Notes under the pieces: generated by a model
Seen by the model: only the letters and a program-made list of their open reading frames with translations
Told to the model about the DNA's origin: nothing
The model's database searches: none
Made by a program: the position numbers and the translations under genes
Part shown: positions 2,371-33,374 of the stretch, piece by piece
Layout of the letters: each line of letters begins with the position of its first letter
How positions within the stretch are numbered: position 1 is the first letter of the stretch
IMG/VR virus record: IMGVR_UViG_3300025327_000105
Span: 1-34,741 of that record
DNA length: 34,741 nt
Strand: one strand, 5' to 3'
Source: a virus

Positions 2371-3405
2371 TTAGGTGATTAACTCCACGCCGCCTTCCAG
2401 CGCGTTCACGCCAGCAATGGTCCAAGCTACTGCCGTGTTCGGATCAGTCTCGAACGTGCCCACGTCGAAGGCGTAGTTGTCGGCGCACGGGATGTTCGCC
2501 CCGTTTGCCGCCGATGCTCCGCTCTCGACTCGCGCTGCGACAGTGCGCGCCCCAGCGTCATCCTTGCGGTGGCGTAACTCGATCTGCACTGCGTCTACCA
2601 CGCCGGTTACGATGCCGAGCGCAGGGAATGTAAAGACGCTGCGCTGCCCTACGGTGGACGACGTGATGTGATCGGTGTCCTCGTTCGGTGGGTTGTCGTC
2701 CACGCATTGGAAGTCGCTGGCCGCGCCCACAGCGGTCCAGTCTACGGGCGCGCCGTCAGCGTTCGCCACGTCTTCCTTGACACGGCGGTCCCCCATGAAG
2801 GTGTTGTTGGTTGCTCCGGTCGTATCCATGATAACGAAATCGTCGAAGCTGACGATGGATGGGTTAGAGCCAACTTCGCGTTGCAGGCGCACACCGTTCA
2901 CGCTCGCGTTGGCGGTGTTTTGCGTGTCCAAGCCGCCTGTCGTCGGTATCCAGCCGGTTGCGGTCCCGTCTACGCGCAACTCAATGGAGCCGGTGGCGTT
3001 GTTGATGGTCACCTGGAACTCTAGATGGTGGTACACATCTTCGATAATCGCGTTGGTGCTCTTGGCCCCGATCAGCGTTCCGTTGCGCGTAAAGAAGAAG
3101 TGCCCGGAAACATCCAGGCGCAGGTCCACTTGCAGCGTCCCGCCATCCCATAGAGCGATGATTGGGACATCCGCGCCGCTGCTGACCGTGTTGAGGATGA
3201 ATGCAACCGCTACAATCACCGTGCTCACAGCGGGGATGCCTGCCAGGATTCCCTCGTTGTTATTGTTGATCTGAACGCCGTTGGTGCTGTTGCGCCCGAA
3301 TGCGCCGATGGTTGGCGTACCCTCTACCGTGTACTTCTGGCTCAGCGTCGTATAGGTGTCGAACCCATCCGCGCCTTGATTAGTGGCAGCATCCAGAATC
3401 GCCAT
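2371..3405 (-). CDS. LamG/concanavalin-like virion protein, paralogue 1 of 3
   Basis: 344 residues from an ATG preceded by GGAGGCACG. The N-terminal ~200 residues read as a LamG-like beta-sandwich, with alternating strands, HHLEFQVTINNATGSIELRVDG, and a DDFVIMDTTGA strand before the hinge. The C-terminal ~140 residues begin FMGDRRVKEDVANADGAPVDWT and carry FQCVDDNPPNEDTDHITSS, shared with the two genes upstream. In those genes the same block reads DANGALQDFTPNAGVNHFDRINEHPPDDDTTYLE. No signal peptide is seen. As the third of three tandem paralogues in the tail/fibre region it may be a glycan-binding or receptor-binding virion protein. The glycan role is inferred from the fold type; no ligand is evident. 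Confidence 0.65.
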   Translation of the reverse strand: MAILDAATNQGADGFDTYTTLSQKYTVEGTPTIGAFGRNSTNGVQINNNNEGILAGIPAVSTVIVAVAFILNTVSSGADVPIIALWDGGTLQVDLRLDVSGHFFFTRNGTLIGAKSTNAIIEDVYHHLEFQVTINNATGSIELRVDGTATGWIPTTGGLDTQNTANASVNGVRLQREVGSNPSIVSFDDFVIMDTTGATNNTFMGDRRVKEDVANADGAPVDWTAVGAASDFQCVDDNPPNEDTDHITSSTVGQRSVFTFPALGIVTGVVDAVQIELRHRKDDAGARTVAARVESGASAANGANIPCADNYAFDVGTFETDPNTAVAWTIAGVNALEGGVELIT

Positions 3406-3414
3406 CGTGCCTCC

Positions 3415-4455
3415 TTATATCTCGAAGTGCCTGAATCCCCACTCGTTGGCGTCAATATCCGCTGCGCTGAATGGCAGCCCGTCCGCTGGGTTGAGCAGGA
3501 AACCAGCGCTGAAACGTTCGTAGGTGATCCCAGGCCGTAACTGCGTCGCTGCGTAGCGGTTCACACCGCCCTCGCGCACACCGATCTGAATTGCGGAGTC
3601 GTTCCCATCAGCGACTTTCTTAGCGTGGACGTTTACTACGACGCCGCTGATTTGCGTGGGGGCGACTCCGAGGTTCTCATGCGCGTTCATCTCTTCCTGC
3701 GTGAACGTAGAGGATTCTAGGTAGGTTGTGTCGTCGTCAGGCGTCGCCTCGTCAATCAGAGAGAAATGATCCACGCCTGTGTTCGGCGTCCACTGCTGAG
3801 ACGCGCCGTTGGCGTTCGGTCGGAGCGTGTAAACGCGCTGATCGCCCAGCCACTCCTCGAACGTGTCGGTGATGTACAATTCGTCGAATAGATCACCGGG
3901 GTCTATTTCAACGACGCCGCTTAACTGCACTATATTGATCGTTGGGAAATACCCGGCATGTGACGCACTCGGTCCGGTGAACACCTGCGTGCCATTGATC
4001 CGCACTGTGGCGATGACAGATGTCTCACCATCCGGGAGCGCTGGCGGATTGGGCGGTGTGGCGAATACTTGGCATGACATCTCCAGGTAGTACCAGTTGT
4101 CCTCCTTGAGCGCGAGTGCAATGGTGCCGAAGGTTCCCTCGCGCTCCATTTGGAAGCGCCCGTTCTGCCTCAGCATGAGCATGCATTGCTGCTGAATGCC
4201 AGCCCAGAACGAGAGGATCGGTTTATGCTGGTCGGTGAACTCATTCCCCTTGAAGAACACGCCTGCCGTTACCTGGTCAATGGGCGGGTCAATGAAGAAA
4301 TCCCAACCCGTATCGTTGCCGCCGCCTGCGTTCGTTGCCAACTCCGCACACGGGTCGCCAAACACGCCAGATGTGGCAGGGAACGTCAGATGGTCTCCGT
4401 CAAATGTCGTGCCAGCCCGTTGCGAGTCTAGCGGATCGAGATAGATCAAGCTCAC
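3415..4455 (-). CDS. LamG/concanavalin-like virion protein, paralogue 2 of 3
   Basis: 346 residues. The start is a GTG at 4455 whose GTGA overlaps the stop of the gene before it, so translation is probably coupled. The order matches its neighbours: a beta-sandwich with DNWYYLEMSCQVF and TVRINGTQVF in the first half, a DLFDELYITDTFEEWLGDQRVYTL hinge, then the shared C-terminal block ANGASQQWTPNTGVDHF and DEATPDDDTTYLESSTF. The C-terminal tail (ADIDANEWGFRHFEI) matches paralogue 3 (AAEVNALQYGIRVQS) and paralogue 1 (AGVNALEGGVELIT) in pattern. Likely tail-associated receptor-binding or decoration protein; the exact role is unknown. Confidence 0.65.
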   Translation of the reverse strand: MSLIYLDPLDSQRAGTTFDGDHLTFPATSGVFGDPCAELATNAGGGNDTGWDFFIDPPIDQVTAGVFFKGNEFTDQHKPILSFWAGIQQQCMLMLRQNGRFQMEREGTFGTIALALKEDNWYYLEMSCQVFATPPNPPALPDGETSVIATVRINGTQVFTGPSASHAGYFPTINIVQLSGVVEIDPGDLFDELYITDTFEEWLGDQRVYTLRPNANGASQQWTPNTGVDHFSLIDEATPDDDTTYLESSTFTQEEMNAHENLGVAPTQISGVVVNVHAKKVADGNDSAIQIGVREGGVNRYAATQLRPGITYERFSAGFLLNPADGLPFSAADIDANEWGFRHFEI

Positions 4456-5576
4456 GATTGCACCCGGATGCCGTACTGGAGCGCATTTACTTCGGCTGCG
4501 GTGTACTGCGCCGCAGTGAATGGGTTCCTGTCGGACGGCCCGTCGAAGTAATAGTAGTCGAGCACAGACGGGAAATAGATGTCGTTAAACTGATGCACGG
4601 TGGGACCGACCGACTCGCGGATGATATGCCGGAACGAGCGGTCCCCTGCCTGCTGCTTGTTGACGCGGGAGACGATGTTGTAGCCGATGATAGTGAAGGC
4701 GGTTGAGATGTCGCTGTACTCGTTGGTCTCTTGGCTGCCGGAGGTGGTCTCCTCCAAGTAGGTCGTGTCGTCGTCAGGCGGATGCTCGTTGATCCGGTCG
4801 AAGTGGTTCACGCCTGCGTTGGGCGTGAAATCCTGGAGCGCGCCGTTGGCGTCGGCGAACGCCGGAATCAGGACTTGCACGTCGCCCACGAAATCAGTCA
4901 ACCGCCCGTTCTCCAAGCCTAGTGATGCTTGGTTGTCAATGATTACGATGTCGTCAATCAGGTCAGGCCCGCCGTGCAACTCGCCGCCGAATGGCTCGCG
5001 GATACCAGAGAACTTGAACGTGTCTGCGGTTGCTACTCCGGTGACGTTCTGCGTGTCAATGCCAGATGCGGTCAGGACTGTGCTGCCGTTGACGCGCAAG
5101 GTGAAGCTGCCCGCGCTGTCATGGATGGTTGCCCTGAACTCCAGGTAGTACCAGTTGCCGCCTAGCAGCGCAAGCGAGGATGTGCCGAGCGATGTGCTCA
5201 GCCCGCGCCGCACGCTCAGCCTGCCATTCTCCTCCAGCGTGACGCTGAGTTGTACTTCTCCGAATTGTTGCAGCGTCAGCAGCGCATCGCGGGTCACCAC
5301 GGTGGGAGTTGATGGCCTGTAAGCCCACCCGACGACCCAGTAGTTGCGGGAGTCCAATGTCTTCCACAAGCCCATAGTAGTCGGGCCGATTACCTGACCC
5401 ACGTAGGCGATAGCGTCTCCGCCACAGCGCCCCGCTCCCAACACCACGCCGATACCGGCGGAGGTGCGGGTCAGACTTTGGCTGCTGGTAGGGCTAACGG
5501 CAACGGCGTTCCAGCGCTCATGCAGATGCGTGTGGTTGTAGAAGTCTCCGCAGGAGTCCGCCCATCGTAGCGCCAT
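4452..5576 (-). CDS. LamG/concanavalin-like virion protein, paralogue 3 of 3
   Basis: 374 residues from an ATG with a GAGG ribosome site (GTGAGGACCAACA). This is the longest of the three. Residues ~1-210 include GGNWYYLEFRATIHDSAGSF, LRVNGSTVLTASGI and DLIDDIVIIDN, typical of a LamG-like concanavalin sandwich. Then come FVGDVQVLIPAFADANGALQ and the shared PPDDDTTYLEETTSGSQE block. It is the first of the tandem trio in transcription order and overlaps paralogue 2 by four bases. The pronounced divergence of the N-terminal sandwich against a more conserved C-terminal block suggests that the N-terminus is the variable, ligand-facing part (inference). Confidence 0.65.
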   Translation of the reverse strand: MALRWADSCGDFYNHTHLHERWNAVAVSPTSSQSLTRTSAGIGVVLGAGRCGGDAIAYVGQVIGPTTMGLWKTLDSRNYWVVGWAYRPSTPTVVTRDALLTLQQFGEVQLSVTLEENGRLSVRRGLSTSLGTSSLALLGGNWYYLEFRATIHDSAGSFTLRVNGSTVLTASGIDTQNVTGVATADTFKFSGIREPFGGELHGGPDLIDDIVIIDNQASLGLENGRLTDFVGDVQVLIPAFADANGALQDFTPNAGVNHFDRINEHPPDDDTTYLEETTSGSQETNEYSDISTAFTIIGYNIVSRVNKQQAGDRSFRHIIRESVGPTVHQFNDIYFPSVLDYYYFDGPSDRNPFTAAQYTAAEVNALQYGIRVQS

Positions 5577-5585
5577 TGTTGGTCC

Positions 5586-6107
5586 TCACGTGCCGTCTGT
5601 ATTGCCGAAACTCTCTTGACCACGCTTGCAGAAGATGCCGACCGATAGGTGCTGCGCCCCGCCAGCGTTTACGATGTCGAGATAGATGGAGTCTCGGTAG
5701 CGTGGGTTGCGCGGTGTCGGCACGGCGGACGGCAGGATGTCCTGCGAGAGATACTCCCCTTGACGAATCGCCATCTCCGGCCCTAGCGGGATGCCTACGG
5801 GACCGACGGTGGATACGCGGAACGGGTTGTAGCGCGCCTGGATGATTAGGTTGCCCGTGCCTGGGGCGATCAGCACCTCGGCGTACATGAGCAGAAACGA
5901 TACGTTCTCGTTGATAAGGATGGGGGGCGTTGCGAACGCGCCGCTCACCACCTCGCCATGCACGTACAGAATCCAGACCATGTTGTCGGTCTTGATCTGG
6001 TCGGCGAACAGGCGCAACTCGCGGTTCAGCCGCAGACGCGCGTCGCGGTCAGACAACTCCAGCGGGATTTCGGGGTAGTGCCGCAGCGGTGGGGGCGCGT
6101 TGGGCAT
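5586..6107 (-). CDS. Conserved-looking phage structural-region protein, unknown function
   Basis: 173 residues. The ATG immediately follows the TAG of the preceding gene (TAGATG), which implies coupled translation; a separate ribosome site is weak. The N-terminal 40 residues are charged and helical (RDARLRLNRELRLFADQIKTDN). The rest is beta-rich with short hydrophobic strands (WILYVHGEV, FLLMYAEVLIAPG) and ends KRGQESFGNTDGT. There is no signal peptide and no motif I recognise. The helix-then-beta layout beside the fibre gene could suit an attachment or minor tail protein, but I assign no function. Confidence 0.55.
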   Translation of the reverse strand: MPNAPPPLRHYPEIPLELSDRDARLRLNRELRLFADQIKTDNMVWILYVHGEVVSGAFATPPILINENVSFLLMYAEVLIAPGTGNLIIQARYNPFRVSTVGPVGIPLGPEMAIRQGEYLSQDILPSAVPTPRNPRYRDSIYLDIVNAGGAQHLSVGIFCKRGQESFGNTDGT

Positions 6108-6448: not shown

Positions 6449-8458
6449 TTAGTTGATGATGTAATAACTCAAGCAAAGTGGGTTCGTCGTCGGCCCTGCA
6501 TCAAGCGTGATCGTAAAGCTCGTTGCGGCAGTCCGTGCCGTGATTCGAGGAGAAAACACATCGGCATCCTGCGTGTTGCATGTCACGCTCAGCCGAGTTC
6601 CCAGCGATGCGTCCACCTGAAGGAATATCTGAGAGTTGGCGGTGACTGCCGTTGTTGAGACTACGGTGGTTGTGTCGGAGGCATCCACCACTACGGAGCC
6701 TGCGGGGGCAGCGGCGCAGGCTGCGTCCCCGGCACTATCGGAGCAGTTGGTGGCGGTGGAGTAAAGCGGGGCGTCGAATTGCACGCTGGAGACGAGCACC
6801 TCGGATATGTTCGCGCCAAGGGTAATGTCAGTGCCCGTTGGGGATGCTTCCCACGCGATAGCTTCGTTGTTGTCGAGACGCAGCGCCCCCGCGTCTGCCG
6901 GATCGGTAGCGTCAAGCTCCAGCGGTCCCGTGAGACCGAAGTTCTCGCTCGCGTCCAAGTCCAGTGATTCGTCGGTGCCAGCAGGCGATGCCTCCCATGA
7001 GATCAGCACAGCGTTCTCTAACCGGATCGCCCCTGCATCCGCGGGGTCGGTGACGCCGATGGTGAGTGAAGTGGCTGAGGCTGCGCCGAGCGAGAACGTC
7101 CCGCCCGTGATCGTGAATGCCTCTGATGAGTCGAATGTGATGCAGGCGTCAGTGCTGGCGGGGGATGCCTCCCAGCAGATCGTATCGGCGTTGTCGAGGC
7201 GGATGACGCCGGAGTCGGCTGGGTCAGTTGCTAACGGCACCAGGGCAGCAGAGAACAGGAACGTGTCCGCAGCGCCTACCTGCATCGTCAGGTCAGTGCC
7301 TGGAGCGGCTGCTTCCCATCCAATGGTCTCTGTGTTGGCAAGGCGTAAGATGACTGGCGTGTCGGCGGTATCGGCTGCTGTGGATGCGTAGAACGTCGAG
7401 GCTGCGCCAGCCCCGAACGTCTTGAGGCCCGCAAAGGTCTGCGCGCCCGTTGAGACTGCACCGCGCGCTGTGGCAGAAGCGGTGGGCACGTTGAGCACGC
7501 CGCTGATCCAATCAATGTCGGTGCCAGCAGTGCCTGGCGTGGCTGCGACGACAAGCGTGCCTGCGCTGTCGGGGAAATTGATGGTGCGCGCAGCGGTGGG
7601 ATTGCCGCCAAGCGTGAACGCGAACCCTGTGCCGGAACGCAGCAAGATGTCCTGTTGAAACGTCTGGTCAAGTGTGAACGAGTTGGCTTCATCTTCGTAG
7701 GCGACGTTGGCTGGGAGTTTGGTGCGCGTGGTGATGCCAGTGGCGTCAACCTCGGCGTCTGAGATGCAGGTCGTGCAGGCTAGTGTTGTCGCTGCGATCC
7801 CGCCCGTGCCTATGGCTTGGAGCAGCCCGGCGGTGGTCATCTCGACGCCGTTGGCGGTGCCTTGGGCGGTGAACTGGACGGGGTTCATGGTGGACGATGA
7901 CCCTGAGCGCACGTCGAGTACCGCGCCTGTGGACGTGGAGCCAGAGCCGTCCACCAGTGTCAGTCCGCTTACGGTCGTGGCGAGGTTGCCCCATGTAAAC
8001 GTTGTCGTGAACGTGGACATGGAGAGCGCAAGATTGCCTGTAGGGACGGTGAGGGCAGACCACGCGGTCGTAGATGCGCCAAGGCCAGCGGTGTCAATCA
8101 GGAATATGTCGCCGAGCGTGAACGGCGTGGCGATGCCGCCGCCGCTCAGTTGCACGTCGTAGCGGCCATTGTCGGCGTAGAAGAACCAGATGCCAGTCGT
8201 TGCGGACGCGGTGAACGGGTTGGCGAGCGGCGTGCCAACGTTGTCGCTAAAGATGGTGCTCAGGACTGCCGTGCCCGCGTTGAATACGGTAACTGTGCAG
8301 CCAGGGTAGGATTGCTGCCAGTCCGTAGTCGTCGTGCCCGCGCCCGTAATGGTGACGTTCTGGTTGCCAAGCTCGCAGAATCCTTGCCCGCGCGCCCGCG
8401 CCTCGCCCAGCGCGGGCAGACACACTACGAGCGCGAGCAACAGGATGAGTCGTCGCAA
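6449..8458 (-). CDS. Large tail-fibre-like protein with N-terminal signal peptide
   Basis: 669 residues. The start is a TTG at 8458 with a strong AGGAGGTGGACG before it; no better ATG exists. The N-terminus, MRRLILLLALVVCLPALGEARA, is a signal peptide, which is unusual for a virion protein. Then come a beta domain (GNQNVTITGAGTTTTDWQQS), the module TAWSALTVPTGNLALSMSTF shared with the other fibre (19657-22050), a Ser/Thr-rich shaft, four ~40-60-residue repeats around DPADAGxIRLxNxxxIxWEASPxGTD, and a beta-rich C-terminus with Cys residues (TNCSDSAGDAACAAAP). The repeated shaft fits a trimeric fibre or adhesin. Receptor binding is inferred; how a fibre with an export signal would be assembled is an open question. 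Confidence 0.65.
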   Translation of the reverse strand: MRRLILLLALVVCLPALGEARARGQGFCELGNQNVTITGAGTTTTDWQQSYPGCTVTVFNAGTAVLSTIFSDNVGTPLANPFTASATTGIWFFYADNGRYDVQLSGGGIATPFTLGDIFLIDTAGLGASTTAWSALTVPTGNLALSMSTFTTTFTWGNLATTVSGLTLVDGSGSTSTGAVLDVRSGSSSTMNPVQFTAQGTANGVEMTTAGLLQAIGTGGIAATTLACTTCISDAEVDATGITTRTKLPANVAYEDEANSFTLDQTFQQDILLRSGTGFAFTLGGNPTAARTINFPDSAGTLVVAATPGTAGTDIDWISGVLNVPTASATARGAVSTGAQTFAGLKTFGAGAASTFYASTAADTADTPVILRLANTETIGWEAAAPGTDLTMQVGAADTFLFSAALVPLATDPADSGVIRLDNADTICWEASPASTDACITFDSSEAFTITGGTFSLGAASATSLTIGVTDPADAGAIRLENAVLISWEASPAGTDESLDLDASENFGLTGPLELDATDPADAGALRLDNNEAIAWEASPTGTDITLGANISEVLVSSVQFDAPLYSTATNCSDSAGDAACAAAPAGSVVVDASDTTTVVSTTAVTANSQIFLQVDASLGTRLSVTCNTQDADVFSPRITARTAATSFTITLDAGPTTNPLCLSYYIIN
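6770..7377 (-). repeat. Four imperfect coding repeats (DPADAG/WEASP units) in the fibre gene
   Basis: Within the 669-aa fibre, four units follow one another: DTADTPVILRLANTETIGWE, TDPADSGVIRLDNADTICWE, TDPADAGAIRLENAVLISWE and TDPADAGALRLDNNEAIAWE. Each is followed by (A/S)PxxTD and an xSExF-type strand. Boundaries are approximate. Such repeats are commonly the strands of an elongated fibre shaft. Confidence 0.65.
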
Positions 8459-25922: not shown

Positions 25923-26774
25923 TTAATCGGTGAACATACGAGCAAGTTGGTCGTCCACGCCGCTCCAGGCTTCACGGCCCGGCGCATCGTCGCAGCCTTC
26001 CATCATTTCTTCCACGCTGATTGGAAGAGCTTCGGGGCGGATGTGGGCGGGCGCGACGGCGGGCGTCTCAGCGGCGTAGTCGTCGGCGTTGGCCCAAGAG
26101 TGCGCCGCCCAGATCGCCAAGAAGATGGCGCGCACGCGGTCGTCGTGACGGCCCCATTTGGCGCGCAACGTGCCGAGAACCCAGTCGGAGGTGCAGTCGG
26201 CGAACTCGTCAACAAGCCAAGGGGAGCGCACCAAGATACGGTTGTTGTTGACGTGGCGCAGGCAGCGCGAGAACAGGGCCATGTTGGAGTCCTTCGTTGC
26301 CTGCCAGCCGATGTGCATGGTGCGTTTCACGGTAGCGCCGTCGAGGGTTTTCCAGAGGAACAGGTTCTGGTAGCCGTAGCGCGAGATCAGCTCGCGCTGC
26401 GTGATGACGCCGTGGCCTCCAGTGAGTTCGATGATGACTTCGGCTTGACCATCCTCGTTTGCGCCTGCATACATGCGGCCCATATAGTTCACGACGCGGG
26501 CGAGGTCTTCGGCGTCTACAGGGGCGGCGTATTCAGCGACTTGAGCGTCCGGCTCGCCACGCGCGCCGAGGCGGATCACTTCGATCACGCCGTTGTCGGT
26601 AGACTTGTCTCCTTTGGAGCGCAAGTGACGGTTCCAGCCGGTAATGCCTTGTGTAGGGTCAACGCCAACGTAGTAGGTGTGGCGTGGGGATGGCTCCTCC
26701 CATATGAGGCCGATGCCGCGCACGTCGCGCAAGTCTTCGCGGGTAGCGTCAATTTGCTGGAACGGCTTGGTCAT
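25923..26774 (-). CDS. terL: Large terminase subunit, nuclease domain (separate reading frame)
   Basis: 283 residues. RNase H-like nuclease features: YYVGVDPTQG with Asp39, AEVIIELTGGHGVITQREL with Glu116, and GRHDDRVRAIFLAIWAAHSW with Asp211/Asp212, the three acidic sites that bind metal for DNA cutting. It lacks ATPase motifs, which are in the preceding frame (26749-27972); the two overlap by 26 bases. The first ATG has only a poor ribosome site, so it may be made by a +1 shift from the ATPase frame or by reinitiation. Together they would give a ~690-aa packaging motor, a normal length. Two genes, a frameshift site or an assembly error are the options. Confidence 0.75.
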   Translation of the reverse strand: MTKPFQQIDATREDLRDVRGIGLIWEEPSPRHTYYVGVDPTQGITGWNRHLRSKGDKSTDNGVIEVIRLGARGEPDAQVAEYAAPVDAEDLARVVNYMGRMYAGANEDGQAEVIIELTGGHGVITQRELISRYGYQNLFLWKTLDGATVKRTMHIGWQATKDSNMALFSRCLRHVNNNRILVRSPWLVDEFADCTSDWVLGTLRAKWGRHDDRVRAIFLAIWAAHSWANADDYAAETPAVAPAHIRPEALPISVEEMMEGCDDAPGREAWSGVDDQLARMFTD

Positions 26775-27972
26775 AAGTCGGCTCGAAATATAACTTAGGC
26801 TCGGACGTGCCCAGGCGCAAACGGTCGAGGAGTTCCGGCGAGAACGATGCGACAGTGGAATGCTGGAATGACTCCTCCGGCGTAGCGCAATAGTTGGTCA
26901 GGAACAAATTCAACTCGTTCGCTTTTTGAGCTGAGGAGCGACGAGTCTCGTACCAGTAGAGTTGCTCGCGGTCCAATTCGACGACGCGCTGGCACCACTC
27001 GTGGGATGTGGCGCGCACCTTATCGGCGTGGAGCCGCGTGATCTGCGACGGGGACCAGTTGTCAGGCGGGTGCAGGCGGTACTTGGTGCGCTCAGCGTAC
27101 CACGGGATGAAGACGTAGGCCCATTCCGGGTGCGCGCCAGCGCGGGTCTCTTCGGTGTATTCGTGCCACCAGTTGCCCCGGCCCTGCGCGGTGGATTCCA
27201 GGATGGTGAGTGTGTGAATGGACTGCGGAATGGTCGGAAGGAAGTCGAGCGCGATGACTTGCGGGTTGGCCCACGATGCGCATTCGGTGAGGTGCGCGAT
27301 CTCGAATTGGCGGCCTTGGCCGAGACCCGATTTCTGCGACGCCTGTTGATAAAGGATGAGCGTGTTCAGGCCCTCGAAGCGAATGTGAGCGGCTTTCTCC
27401 TCGAAGCGCACCTGCGGGCGCATCCACCACGGCAAGTGGTCGTAGATCACTTTGTCGCGGTCGTAGAGTTCGAGCACTTTGTCCTCGTCCACTGAAGCAG
27501 CCATTGCGTTGATATGGCGCGTGAAGATCATGCGGTGAACGGTGAGCAGGCGCGCGAGGGCTGTGGCACCGAGCTGGCGGGCCTTGTGCAACAAAATGCG
27601 GATGCCTTCGATGGGCCAGCCCTTGGCGCGTTGCTCCCAAGCGCGCTCCTCGACACGGGCGATGTGAGATAAGATGAGTTCTTGCGATTCCCACGGGCGC
27701 GGATGGCCGAGGCCGCCGCCGTCGAGCTTGACGTAGGAGTAGCGAGCGACCCAATAGCGGAAGTCGCACATGGCGAGCAGGCATTCGTTACGGATGAACT
27801 CTGCTTCGTCGCGGGTGATGCGTCGGCGCGGGCGGTCGTTTCCGGCGTCCCAAGCGGCGTTGAGAGCTTGCACGCGCTCGTCAACGAGGGCGATGTCGTG
27901 GCGGCGGAGTTTGATGCCAGAAGCGCGCTCGATCTTAGCGATGCGCTCGGCGATGATGGATTCGGAGTACAT
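26749..27972 (-). CDS. terL: Large terminase subunit, ATPase domain (separate reading frame)
   Basis: 407 residues from the ATG at 27972; there is no strong ribosome site and the stop of the preceding gene is eight bases before, so coupled translation is likely. It carries the packaging-ATPase motifs: Walker A KARQLGAT (130-137), Walker B region FEIAHLTECASWANP with Glu230, and the coupling motif ILESTAQGRG (257-266). It powers DNA translocation into the procapsid through the portal. The frame ends VPAN then TGA; the nuclease frame continues if one base is skipped at AAT-TGA-C. Motif order and spacing are typical of TerL. Confidence 0.8.
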   Translation of the reverse strand: MYSESIIAERIAKIERASGIKLRRHDIALVDERVQALNAAWDAGNDRPRRRITRDEAEFIRNECLLAMCDFRYWVARYSYVKLDGGGLGHPRPWESQELILSHIARVEERAWEQRAKGWPIEGIRILLHKARQLGATALARLLTVHRMIFTRHINAMAASVDEDKVLELYDRDKVIYDHLPWWMRPQVRFEEKAAHIRFEGLNTLILYQQASQKSGLGQGRQFEIAHLTECASWANPQVIALDFLPTIPQSIHTLTILESTAQGRGNWWHEYTEETRAGAHPEWAYVFIPWYAERTKYRLHPPDNWSPSQITRLHADKVRATSHEWCQRVVELDREQLYWYETRRSSAQKANELNLFLTNYCATPEESFQHSTVASFSPELLDRLRLGTSEPKLYFEPTYDQAVPAN

Positions 27973-27980
27973 TCGCGCGG

Positions 27981-28205
27981 CTACGGCTCTTCTTCGACAG
28001 GCACGCCCTGCAAAGCTTCCCACTCTTGGCGGATCAGATCGCCCTCAGTGGCGTAGGACACGGCAGGGTCGGCGGCGGACTCGACAGGTTCAGGCGCGGC
28101 GGGGACCATGCCCACAGCCATCTCTAGCGCGGTGGCGATGCGGGCGAGTTGGCGCTCAACGCCTTTGAGGTCCACGCGCACGACCTGGATGAGCGGTTGC
28201 CTCAT
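27981..28205 (-). CDS. Small protein before the terminase, unknown function
   Basis: 74 residues, ATG joined by ATGA to the gene before. Two-part: a helical N-terminus with a basic face (MRQPLIQVVRVDLKGVERQL, ARIATALEMAVGMV) and an acidic Pro-rich tail (PAAPEPVESAADPAVSYATE, WEALQGVPVEEEP). The charge pattern could suit a small packaging accessory that binds the ATPase, but I recognise no family. It is the last small gene before TerL. Confidence 0.5.
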   Translation of the reverse strand: MRQPLIQVVRVDLKGVERQLARIATALEMAVGMVPAAPEPVESAADPAVSYATEGDLIRQEWEALQGVPVEEEP

Positions 28206-28402: not shown

Positions 28403-28554
28403 GTCAACACCACCACGCGCTGGTTGGGCCGATGAGTGCGCCCGCGCGTATCCTCATAGTCGTCCACATCGGTGACGTCGTGACCCTCGCTGGTGACGAC
28501 GGGCAAGCCAGGGGGCCACTTCTTCAACTCAACAATCAGTTCATGCACTGTCAT
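28399..28554 (-). CDS. Small phage protein with VHELIVELKKWPPGLPV-type start
   Basis: 51 residues from the ATG at 28554, with GGAGGTCTCCG upstream. The longer frame to 29028 is a shadow of the candidate small-terminase gene. The sequence MTVHELIVELKKWPPGLPVV and then TSEGHDVTDVDDYEDTRGRT follows a pattern I have seen in many small phage proteins (helix, ...PPxxPVxVxxxxxxxxDVxxV), of unknown function. It overlaps both neighbours. Confidence 0.6.
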   Translation of the reverse strand: MTVHELIVELKKWPPGLPVVTSEGHDVTDVDDYEDTRGRTHRPNQRVVVLT

Positions 28555-29167
28555 CGGAGACCTCCTGCGCGAATGCGTCAATGATCTCGCCTGCCTTGCC
28601 CACGAGGGCTTCAAACGATTCGATAGGCGCGCCGCCGAAGTTGATGTTGGTTGTGGCGAGCGGTCCGCGCCGGTTGATGAGGCCAGTGGATTCCCAGATG
28701 AGCTTGCGGTTCTCAATGTCGCCGCGCACGCGGACTTCGCCTTTGCCTTGGCACTCGGCGCAGACGACGGTGAATCTAGCTTTGCCCTTGCCCTTGGTGA
28801 TCTTACCATCGCCGTCGCAGACCCAGCACTCGACGGTCTCGGAGCGGGCGTCCACGGCGGTGTCTTCCATGATGTCCGGGATGTGGCGGGCGACGCGGAT
28901 CGCGCCGAGGTCAATCTGGTGCTTGCGGAACAGCGTGATGAGTTCAGGCGCGGTAAGACCGGCGCGGTGCGCGAGCGTAAACAGCGAGGCGTTGACGTGT
29001 GAAGGGCCAGGGTCGGTAAACAGTTCAAGCAGTTTGCGGGCGCGCTGGTCGTCGGTGGTTTCGAGCACGCCCATCAGTTCCTCGCGCGTGATGACAGATT
29101 CGATGCGCTTCATCACGGCCTTTTCTTGCAAGACGGGCAGCTTACGGCTGTTCTTCGCTCTAGGCAT
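28541..29167 (-). CDS. Zinc-finger DNA-binding protein, candidate small terminase subunit
   Basis: 208 residues from the ATG at 29167 (TGATG with the gene before). An N-terminal helical half includes a helix-turn-helix-like stretch (FTLAHRAGLTAPELITLFRK, HQIDLGAIRVARHIPDIMED). The middle has a DnaJ-like zinc finger, Cys114-x2-Cys117-DGDG and Cys136-x2-Cys139-QGKG. The C-terminal ~55 residues (IESFEALVGKAGEIIDAFAQ) are helical. Its place two small genes ahead of TerL and its DNA-binding character suggest the packaging-site recognition subunit, but a TerS fold is not proven; a transcription factor is an alternative. Confidence 0.5.
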   Translation of the reverse strand: MPRAKNSRKLPVLQEKAVMKRIESVITREELMGVLETTDDQRARKLLELFTDPGPSHVNASLFTLAHRAGLTAPELITLFRKHQIDLGAIRVARHIPDIMEDTAVDARSETVECWVCDGDGKITKGKGKARFTVVCAECQGKGEVRVRGDIENRKLIWESTGLINRRGPLATTNINFGGAPIESFEALVGKAGEIIDAFAQEVSDDSA

Positions 29168-29418
29168 CAGTTCCCCCAATCCGTGGCAGGAGCAATAATC
29201 GGGCGGTCCCACGCAAGAGGGCCGGTAAAGAGACGGCGCTGTTCAGCAAGAATCATCTCCTGGATGTACCGATTGATGTTGTCCAATGAGTCTAATGGAC
29301 AGTCCCATCCGCCTTGCGGGGGCAAGAATATCTTCCTATTTGGCGTCCACAACCCATGCGGAGCAGCCAGCGCCATCGCTTCCATTGCAGCTAAGATCAG
29401 GAAATCACGGCGACGCAT
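29167..29418 (-). CDS. Small protein with twin-arginine-like signal
   Basis: 83 residues from the ATG at 29418, with AGGAAGTGCAAC. The start MRRRDFLILAAMEAMALAAP has the RRxFL core of Tat signals plus a short hydrophobic run. The mature part reads HGLWTPNRKIFLPPQGGWDC and LDNINRYIQEMILAEQRRLF. The gene overlaps the XRE-type gene by 14 bases. It lies in the early end of the leftward operon, away from virion genes, so it may act on the host envelope. No family recognised; export is predicted from the N-terminus only. Confidence 0.5.
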   Translation of the reverse strand: MRRRDFLILAAMEAMALAAPHGLWTPNRKIFLPPQGGWDCPLDSLDNINRYIQEMILAEQRRLFTGPLAWDRPIIAPATDWGN

Positions 29419-29638
29419 GTTGCACTTCCTTTGCGGCGGCGACGATGCCACGCACTTCTAGCACCGACGGAGCAGTCTCGCCCGATTCCCACCGCATGAT
29501 GGTATTGCGCGACACTCCGATGAGGTCCGCGAACTTGGCCTGCGTGAGCGCCAAGGCGCGGCGGATGCGCTGGATGTCCGCGCCAGTGAGCATCCGAATG
29601 CGTCCATTGCGTTTTGGCACCACCCGGCCGCGTTTCAT
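29405..29638 (-). CDS. XRE/Cro-type helix-turn-helix regulator
   Basis: 77 residues from the ATG at 29638 (ATGA with the gene before). A basic arm (MKRGRVVPKRNGRIR) precedes a full HTH_3-type domain at ~20-72: IQRIRRALALTQAKFADLIG, VSRNTIMRWESGETAPSVLE and VRGIVAAA. Motif LTQxxFAxLIGVSRNTIxRWExG is diagnostic. It probably binds an operator as a dimer; targets could be the leftward promoter or the inverted repeats at 31258-31432 (inference). No lysogeny genes accompany it. Confidence 0.85.
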   Translation of the reverse strand: MKRGRVVPKRNGRIRMLTGADIQRIRRALALTQAKFADLIGVSRNTIMRWESGETAPSVLEVRGIVAAAKEVQHASP

Positions 29639-31036: not shown

Positions 31037-31065
31037 ATCGTATCCCCGCCCCCCGCCCGTGTCAA
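31037..31065 (-). promoter_or_regulatory. Near-consensus leftward promoter
   Basis: On the minus strand, TTGACA (31065-31060), exactly 17 bases, then TACGAT (31042-31037). A T-run lies just upstream of the -35 (UP-like). The expected start near 31030 leaves a ~20-base leader to the ATG at 31007. It drives the leftward arm. Confidence 0.8.
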
Positions 31066-31257
31066 GCAAAAAATGTACCACCATGCGACATGCGTGCGGA
31101 CGGCAGGATTTTTTGTGCGCCGAGGCCGAGCAGGTCCCCGTCTCGCCCTACTCATTGACCCCCAGGACAATCGAGGGTGGGGGCATTGCGGGCGTGGGTG
31201 CGGTCAACGGTGGTAGGGCCTGGCGCGCCGGGGAGCGGGAGGCGGGGGCGCTGGCGT

Positions 31258-31432
31258 GGTAGGTACTAGGTCGTAGTCCTACCGCCGCAATGGGACGCAC
31301 TAGGACAGTACTAGTGCGTCAATAGGACGGACTAGGCGATAGTCCTATGCGTACGGGGACAACAGCCGCCTGGCAGTACTAGTGGTCCTATCGCACTAGT
31401 AGGACGGTACGGTCCTATACCGTACTAGGACC
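31258..31432. repeat. Palindrome cluster: GTCCTA/TAGGAC sites and CTAG-rich inverted repeats
   Basis: Eight copies of GTCCTA or its complement TAGGAC start at 31276, 31301, 31323, 31342, 31385, 31400, 31412 and 31426, mostly in inverted pairs. Seven CTAG tetramers fall between 31266 and 31428. Clear inverted repeats: GGTAGG/CCTACC (31258-31283); GACGCACTAG/CTAGTGCGTC with a 7-base gap (31294-31320); ATAGGAC/GTCCTAT (31322-31348); GTCCTA/TAGGAC (31385-31405); GTACGGT/ACCGTAC (31407-31425) overlapping GGTCCTA/TAGGACC (31411-31432). Role unknown: initiator sites at an origin or a large operator. Confidence 0.85.
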
Positions 31433-31465
31433 ATGTACCTTATCTGAGTCAAGGGTACTCAATGA

Positions 31466-31485
31466 ACTGACGTCGGGCGGTCAGT
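31466..31485. repeat. Inverted repeat ACTGAC/GTCAGT
   Basis: Six-base arms with an eight-base spacer, between the palindrome cluster and the first rightward promoter. It differs in sequence from the GTCCTA sites and may be a separate operator; it could also be chance. Confidence 0.4.
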
Positions 31486-31559
31486 ACGTGGCATGGCGAA
31501 CAGCAGGCGAACGGCGCAGTCCTAGTACTCACAATCTGTCATACGGTGTACGATTTCAC

Positions 31560-31588
31560 TTGACAAGACATCGCCCGCGTGATACGGT
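31560..31588 (+). promoter_or_regulatory. Rightward early promoter 1
   Basis: TTGACA (31560-31565), 17 bases, then TACGGT (31583-31588) with TGA just before it (extended -10 TGATACGGT). The stretch TTGACAAGA...CAT..CGC...GCGT.TGATA is shared with promoter 2 at 32166, which argues for a real, phage-specific early promoter type. A GGAGG ribosome site and ATG follow at 31594-31609. Confidence 0.65.
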
Positions 31589-32093: not shown

Positions 32094-32151
32094 CAAAATC
32101 CCACGTCGGGCGGTGGTATCAAATTCGGCACGGGCTAGGGCGCAGTCCTAT

Positions 32152-32195
32152 TTGTCAAATGGGACTTGACAAGAGCATGTCGCGTCTGATAGCGT
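32152..32195 (+). promoter_or_regulatory. Rightward early promoter 2 with inverted repeat over the -35
   Basis: TTGACA (32166-32171), 18 bases, TAGCGT (32190-32195) with TGA before it (extended -10). A perfect seven-base inverted repeat, TTGTCAA-ATGGGAC-TTGACAA (32152-32172), covers the -35 box and could be a repressor site. A lone GTCCTA (32145-32150), of the kind found in the palindrome cluster, sits immediately upstream in the same GCGCAGTCCTA context as the copy at 31519. Confidence 0.6.
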
Positions 32196-32657: not shown

Positions 32658-33374
32658 ATGCTCAATAAGCACAATTTGGACGTAGCGAAGTTCGCAAGCA
32701 AAGAAGAATCGCGTTATACCATGAACGCGATCCTGGTCACTCCGCATGAGACGGTGGCGACGGATGGACACCGTTTGGTGCGCGTGAGTCTGCCGAAGCG
32801 CGAAGATTTCCCATCGCGCAATGGGTTTGAGGCATTGGAAACGTGGACGCCATTCTTGCTCCCTGTCAAGACGGCTCAGAACGTAGCTAAGGCAATCCCG
32901 CAACGGCAGACCATTCCAGCACTGGAAATGGTAGGCATTGGCAAGCCGCAAGGCGAGGATGAGACGACGTGTGAGCTGGTGGTGACTGATTTGGAAGAAT
33001 GGCGAACGTTTGCGGTGCGCAAGTTGACCGGGACGTTCCCTAAATGGTCCCAGGTTATTCCGCAAGGCGAGTTTGCGTTCGAGATCACCGTGGACGCGAG
33101 CTACCTGGCTGAGATGGCGGCGGCAGCGTCGAAGTTCACGGATGCTCCTACTTCATCACTGACCATTCGGTTCCGAGCGGACCACTGCGACAAGGCGATT
33201 CGCATGGATGCGCGGCGCAGCGATGGGCAGACCTGGGTAGGTGTGCTCATGCCAGTGCGTGACGCTGTGCCGCTGGCTGATTTGGACACTGTGCCAGCAC
33301 CGCAACCGGAGACAGTCCCGCAACCGGAGGCAGAATCGAAGGAGGCCCACAATGACGACTTGGCTGCTGAATAG
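32658..33374 (+). CDS. Phage sliding-clamp-like protein (DnaN-type domain)
   Basis: 238 residues, ATG with AAAGGAGGATACG. Residues ~19-46 (RYTMNAILVTPHETVATDGH, then RLVRVSLP) match the core strand motif of bacterial beta-clamp domains (...A.DGHRL....). A second domain (~95-200: ELVVTDLEEWRTFAVRKLTG, FEITVDASYLAEMAAAASKF, VGVLMPVRD) follows the same pattern. The C-terminal ~30 residues are Pro/Glu/Gln-rich repeats (PAPQPETVPQPEAESKEA). The chain is shorter than host DnaN (~370 aa), so it has two domains rather than three. It may tether a phage polymerase or regulate host replication. Confidence 0.65.
   Translation: MLNKHNLDVAKFASKEESRYTMNAILVTPHETVATDGHRLVRVSLPKREDFPSRNGFEALETWTPFLLPVKTAQNVAKAIPQRQTIPALEMVGIGKPQGEDETTCELVVTDLEEWRTFAVRKLTGTFPKWSQVIPQGEFAFEITVDASYLAEMAAAASKFTDAPTSSLTIRFRADHCDKAIRMDARRSDGQTWVGVLMPVRDAVPLADLDTVPAPQPETVPQPEAESKEAHNDDLAAE

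Follow-up and report, generated by a model that had tools for sequence, protein, structure and literature searches.

The window analysed here, a 34.7-kb fragment of a viral genome (the rest of the early region lies outside the record), carries a dense array of short palindromic sites between its two diverging gene arms, and we consider that this array probably serves in cis as a cluster of operators through which one DNA-binding regulator controls early transcription. The core of the array (31258-31432) contains 12 exact matches to the half-site GTMCTA, which occur in both orientations, together with seven CTAG tetramers. The half-sites form a dyad, one copy of which abuts an early promoter, and several related phages keep the array at the corresponding position. 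That a protein binds these sites, that it is a single protein, that it acts cooperatively and in which sense it controls transcription, we infer from this arrangement.

A sequence-only reading of this DNA had counted eight GTCCTA/TAGGAC sites within 156 bases and seven CTAG tetramers within 163 bases, and both counts hold (31276-31431 and 31266-31428, respectively); one further CTAG lies at 31522. The motif as such is real, but it is better written as GTMCTA, since the array also includes four half-sites of the form GTACTA. In the core, half-sites in plus orientation begin at 31263, 31276, 31308, 31342, 31376, 31385, 31412 and 31422, and those in minus orientation at 31301, 31323, 31400 and 31426. 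The 361 bp from 31200 to 31560 contain 14 half-sites versus 1.45 expected from dinucleotide shuffles, a number that 0 of 1000 shuffles reached, and every other 361-bp stretch of the window contains at most two. The scarcity of CTAG, which had been presented as part of the surprise, was overstated: genome-wide, 59 copies are found where 69 are expected, which is only a mild scarcity. The surprise thus lies not in the tetramer but in its clustering, which is real (eight in 361 bp versus 3.1 in shuffled sequence, p=0.002).

GTCCTA ranked first in an unbiased search of the window for over-represented 6-mers, and the count against shuffles that the earlier reading had proposed gave 16 occurrences on either strand versus 7.3 expected, with 0 of 100 shuffles reaching 16. 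The six GTCCTA sites of the window that remain lie in the leftward gene arm, in a single orientation and with GTAGGAC as their context, which is the pattern to be expected from codon usage. Equal frequency of the motif in coding regions had been named as evidence against a special array, and this is not what we found: outside the array, the motif does not reach the same frequency.

Pairs of half-sites make up a 21-bp dyad, GTMCTA-N9-TRGGAC. When the 34.7 kb were scanned with GTMCYA-N9-TRGKAC, counting as good copies those with at least 11 of 12 matching bases, four dyads were found, and all four lie in the control region, such that the dyad is repeated there and rare elsewhere, as is expected of an operator. 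Three of them are in the array, GTCCTACCGCCGCAATGGGAC (31276-31296, 11/12), GTACTAGTGCGTCAATAGGAC (31308-31328, 12/12) and GTCCTATCGCACTAGTAGGAC (31385-31405, 12/12), and the fourth is GTCCTATTTGTCAAATGGGAC at 32145-32165 (11/12), whose arms are complementary at nine of ten positions. A weaker dyad (10/12), GCACTAGGACAGTACTAGTGC at 31297-31317, overlaps the one at 31308 and lies within the inverted repeat at 31294-31320, for which perfect arms of ten bases (GACGCACTAG / CTAGTGCGTC) had been reported, rightly; this repeat extends to 13-nt arms at 92%. Most half-sites can be read within two arrangements, the 21-bp dyad or a 10-bp palindrome, GTMCTAGKAC, of which GTACTAGGAC at 31422-31431 is an example. 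The spacing of the half-sites is irregular and the dyad explains only part of it (common-spacing p=0.013).

Inverted repeats of this kind could also act as hairpins, in a structured RNA or in cruciform DNA, and the array does fold well when compared with shuffles (z of -4.3 for DNA, and of -3.9 and -3.3 for RNA). However, good folding is expected of any dense palindrome array, many of the units are loop-free (GGGGTACTAGTACCCC in L004, GTACTAGGAC in the window), the perfect 10-bp site at PR1 described below is both loop-free and too short to form a hairpin, and a search of the array against Rfam gave no match. We therefore regard a function as folded nucleic acid as highly improbable.

An operator is expected to have copies at the promoters it controls. 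From sequence, we placed a leftward promoter, PL, at 31037-31065 on the minus strand (TTGACA-17-TACGAT) and two early promoters on the plus strand, PR1 at 31560-31588 (TTGACA with the extended -10 element TGATACGGT) and PR2 at 32166-32195 (TTGACA with the extended -10 element TGATAGCGT). The two early promoters, which begin at 31560 and 32166, have the layout TTGACAAG ... TGATAnnGT in common, and the array is located between PL and PR1/PR2 and overlaps none of them. Outlying single sites had been noted at 31519 and 32145, and both are indeed present upstream of the rightward promoters. The first is a perfect 10-bp site of the form GTMCTAGKAC, GTCCTAGTAC (31519-31528), which starts 41 bp upstream of the -35 box of PR1. 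The second is not single: it is the left half of the near-perfect 21-bp palindrome mentioned above, which ends right where the TTGACA of PR2 begins. Furthermore, when relatives were examined for early promoters with this layout (TTGAC-N-TGnTAnnnT), six of eight had a site (GTMCTA or CTAG) 20-55 bp upstream of the -35 box, where 0.98 would be expected (p about 8e-5, with the 20-55 bp window having been set post hoc, after the first cases were seen).

The sequence-only reading had left the choice between an origin, a master operator and a site for recombination or packaging. Because a copy of the dyad directly adjoins the -35 box of an early promoter and sites lie upstream of the early promoters of relatives, the master operator is the best supported of these, while the origin and the packaging site have been weakened. 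The regulator would recognise GTMCTA singly, as the 10-bp GTMCTAGKAC, or as the 21-bp GTMCTA-N9-TAGGAC; it would most likely load cooperatively on the cluster between PL and PR1/PR2, and the outlying sites just upstream of the -35 boxes may be the route by which it acts on the early promoters. Since these sites are upstream of the -35 box and not over the -10 element or the transcription start, activation or bridging would fit better than simple occlusion.

The best candidate for the binding protein is a small XRE-family (HTH_3) regulator encoded in the leftward operon (29408-29593, minus strand). Its gene is found in five of the seven array phages (the window, L017, L020, L021 and L023), but was not found in the array-bearing G002 and G001, such that we regard it only as a candidate. 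One XRE-like domain is also present in L029, which has no array. LexA-type boxes were considered as well and discarded, because the window and L004 each gave one isolated match and none was systematic.

Two further stretches flank the array. On its terminase side, a short T-tract (ATTTTTTGTG-like) is found at 31110-31125 in the window and also in L004, L017, L020, L021 and L023. To its right, a ATGGCGAAC-type stretch is conserved, at 31494-31523 in the window, near the early promoter in L017 and L020, and at position 3873 in L002. A protein site was rejected for the latter stretch, since the differences between L017 and L020 fall at third codon positions (MAKVTFGL / MANVTFGL), which suggests that it is possibly a tiny leader ORF.

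Relatives of the window were found via its terminase large subunit (TerL, 26749-28023, minus strand) and a sliding-clamp-like protein (32658-33374, plus strand), which has a weak PHROG match to DNA polymerase processivity factors and is also present in the array-bearing G001. The motif was learned from the window, and its count at each relative's divergent gap was compared with shuffles. Ten half-sites were found in L004/G002 (1.3 expected) and six, scattered across about 400 bp, in L002/G001 (0.4 expected), both at p<0.001, though these two p values are descriptive, since L004 and L002 were first picked out by their site counts. L020 and L021 have four half-sites each (0.4 expected, p<0.001 for both), L023 has three (0.4 expected, p=0.007), and L017 has three (0.6 expected, p=0.03). 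G002 is complete, as judged by an overlap of 99 bp between its ends; there, GTACTA at the gap came first in an unbiased search for over-represented 6-mers, and the same array was recovered independently, as L176, in a scan of contigs for paired ACTAGTAC.

L017, L020, L021 and L023 are mutually close and, by their contig names, come from one metagenome, and thus amount to approximately one independent case; the number of independent cases is roughly four, namely the window, G002, G001 and this clade. The relatives come from metagenomes. No nucleotide alignment of the window array with the arrays of the relatives was obtained. The sites are thus kept while the DNA around them cannot be aligned, which means that they persist through sequence turnover, as binding sites do. 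A lack of conservation in related phages would have spoken against the array; it is kept in several relatives, while others are without it. The motif was absent at the divergent gap of six relatives (G003, L036, L039, L027, L044 and Tunturi_1, the last with a distant TerL), and L030 has two half-sites (p=0.035). A scan by clamp alignment gave three more loci, all of them without the array. A nucleotide search among annotated phages found no relative of the array region, and a search of a genome collection yielded a single distant TerL only.

Some of these loci show features of their own. In L023, an HNH-type gene, judged by eye (6634-6930), apparently sits inside the divergent gap, with array-type sites flanking it on both sides. 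In L002, an IS1595-family transposase (4795-5730) lies between the array and the clamp gene. Clusters of GTACGT/GTAC palindromes are found about 6-9 kb from a distant TerL in G017 (59.6 kb, L215), in L048 (2330-2520) and in L054 (1730-1960). In the window itself, three tandem paralogous genes, each matching phrog_2448, occupy 2371-5576 on the minus strand.

Similar clusters in unrelated viral contigs are mostly of another nature. The scan for paired ACTAGTAC gave at least 120 matches, and of the 13 loci inspected most are Ser/Thr-type coding repeats, while L091, L110, L124 and L166 appear to be unrelated non-coding clusters. A scan for the GTCCTA dyad with a third site gave 32 hits, and those inspected are nearly all collagen-like Gly-Pro coding repeats. 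As the unrelated GTCCTA clusters that we inspected are mostly, and the GTACTA clusters often, coding repeats, the non-coding array of the window is of another kind. In one contig, L244, the coding sequence of a short ribbon-helix-helix-like ORF itself includes several GTCCTA/TAGGAC sites (4320-4620).

The position of the array raises the question whether it is a packaging site, pac or cos, that is bound by the small terminase subunit. In all cases the terminase operon follows downstream of the array, and in the group to which the window belongs TerL is preceded by a protein with an HTH and a DnaJ-type CXXCXGXG zinc finger (28541-29167, minus strand), which adjoins the terminase, is kept in most TerL relatives and is likely the small terminase subunit (putative TerS). 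Its predicted structure has a mean pLDDT of 69, and its matches to known structures are limited to the zinc finger. However, the array of the window is about 2 kb from this TerS-like gene, several relatives with the same type of TerS-like protein and TerL have no motif, and G001 keeps the motif although its terminase pair (phrog_15 TerL and phrog_57 TerS) is unrelated. The array therefore does not travel with a cognate terminase, and its occurrence with two unrelated terminase modules makes a role in packaging very unlikely. Dense arrays of short palindromes are also known from recombination and partition sites, and G002 encodes a fusion of a ParB-domain protein and a DNA methyltransferase in its early arm (57.7-58.9 kb; L202:17663-18919, minus strand), which could point to a centromere-like site. 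On the circular G002, however, this gene is about 15 kb from the array; it was not seen in the window, and neither a recombinase nor a partition gene was recognised in the vicinity of the array, such that we hold this to be the least probable of the explanations considered.

A more serious contender is a replication origin, in which the sites would be initiator boxes, the DNA would melt nearby and bidirectional forks would leave the array. The cumulative GC skew, proposed by the sequence-only reading as a check, indeed has a minimum at or near the array: it is global in G002 (11.9 kb, with the maximum at 44.2 kb of 61.7 kb), global and no further than about 400 bp from the array in L017, L020, L021 and L023, and local in G001 and the window. 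For three sequences (the window, L002 and L017), the 60-bp stretch with the lowest GC content overall is no more than 600 bp from the array. The clamp-like gene is downstream of the array. The skew is confounded by gene direction, however, since its turn coincides with the switch in gene direction and is also found near this switch in G003, which has no array. Furthermore, none of seven phages has a DnaA box within 800 bp of the array, though phages may use other initiators, and the half-sites have no helical phasing (R(10.5)=0.07, best period p=0.6).

In G001, the array is at 27.5-28 kb, while 23 kb away, inside a replication-initiator gene (phrog_270, E 1e-18), there are separate iterons with exact 11-bp spacing at 50.56-50.64 kb (L206:10561-10634). 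This cluster is likely a lambda-type origin, and that G001 has an iteron cluster of its own in its initiator gene argues against the array being the origin. A comparable intragenic cluster, eight CGTTAC/GTAACG repeats in an initiator-like gene (L029:126-320), is found in the array-less L029, which is a relative by its TerL. We have thus lowered our estimate of an origin in the window itself, and an origin at the array seems possible but unlikely. Less likely again is a shared hub, in which one array-bound phage protein would govern the initiation of replication as well as the direction of early and late transcription. If true, origin and switch would be combined in one element, which unrelated phages keep via motif turnover rather than sequence identity.

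If the array is the operator cluster that we favour, a 21-bp recognition sequence with named candidate promoters becomes available as a control element for uncultivated phages about whose functions almost nothing is known. Furthermore, an array that holds its place in phages whose head and packaging genes differ, while the surrounding sequence turns over, would be a natural case of operator evolution, and also of a regulatory module that is exchanged independently of structural genes.

In the literature searched, whose coverage is incomplete, there was no description of the motif, though several known systems resemble the array in part. The TrpR operator has the form CTAG-N4-CTAG, and the GTACTAG/CTAGTAC core of the array is like a TrpR half-site. 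Unlike in the TrpR operator, the window array has no two CTAG half-sites at the 8-bp centre spacing that CTAG-N4-CTAG implies, one instance being found in L021 only, and none of the window proteins scanned near the array was recognisably TrpR-like. The P4 origin and crr consist of iterons bound by the alpha protein, and these share with the array a short motif that is clustered in both orientations in a non-coding gap. The motif differs, however, and that of P4 was not found; the array shows neither the phasing nor the DnaA boxes of an iteron origin, and G001 keeps its iterons within a gene.

The stoperators of cluster A mycobacteriophages, an asymmetric 13-bp motif dispersed genome-wide, are likewise many copies of one regulator motif in a phage genome (PMC9283540, PMC6550527). 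In contrast to them, the sites found here are palindromes restricted to one gap and to two promoters, i.e., neither the asymmetry nor the genome-wide spread is seen, and the stoperator sequence was not found. Multi-site operators for phage repressors and activators are known in the OL/OR type of lambda and in the operator/IAS of Mu. The array differs from these in having about 12-14 half-sites in mixed orientation and with irregular spacing, which overlap no recognised promoter. Nevertheless, it would appear to work like such a multi-site phage operator, with one dyad present in several copies between divergent promoters, and with more copies at individual promoters.
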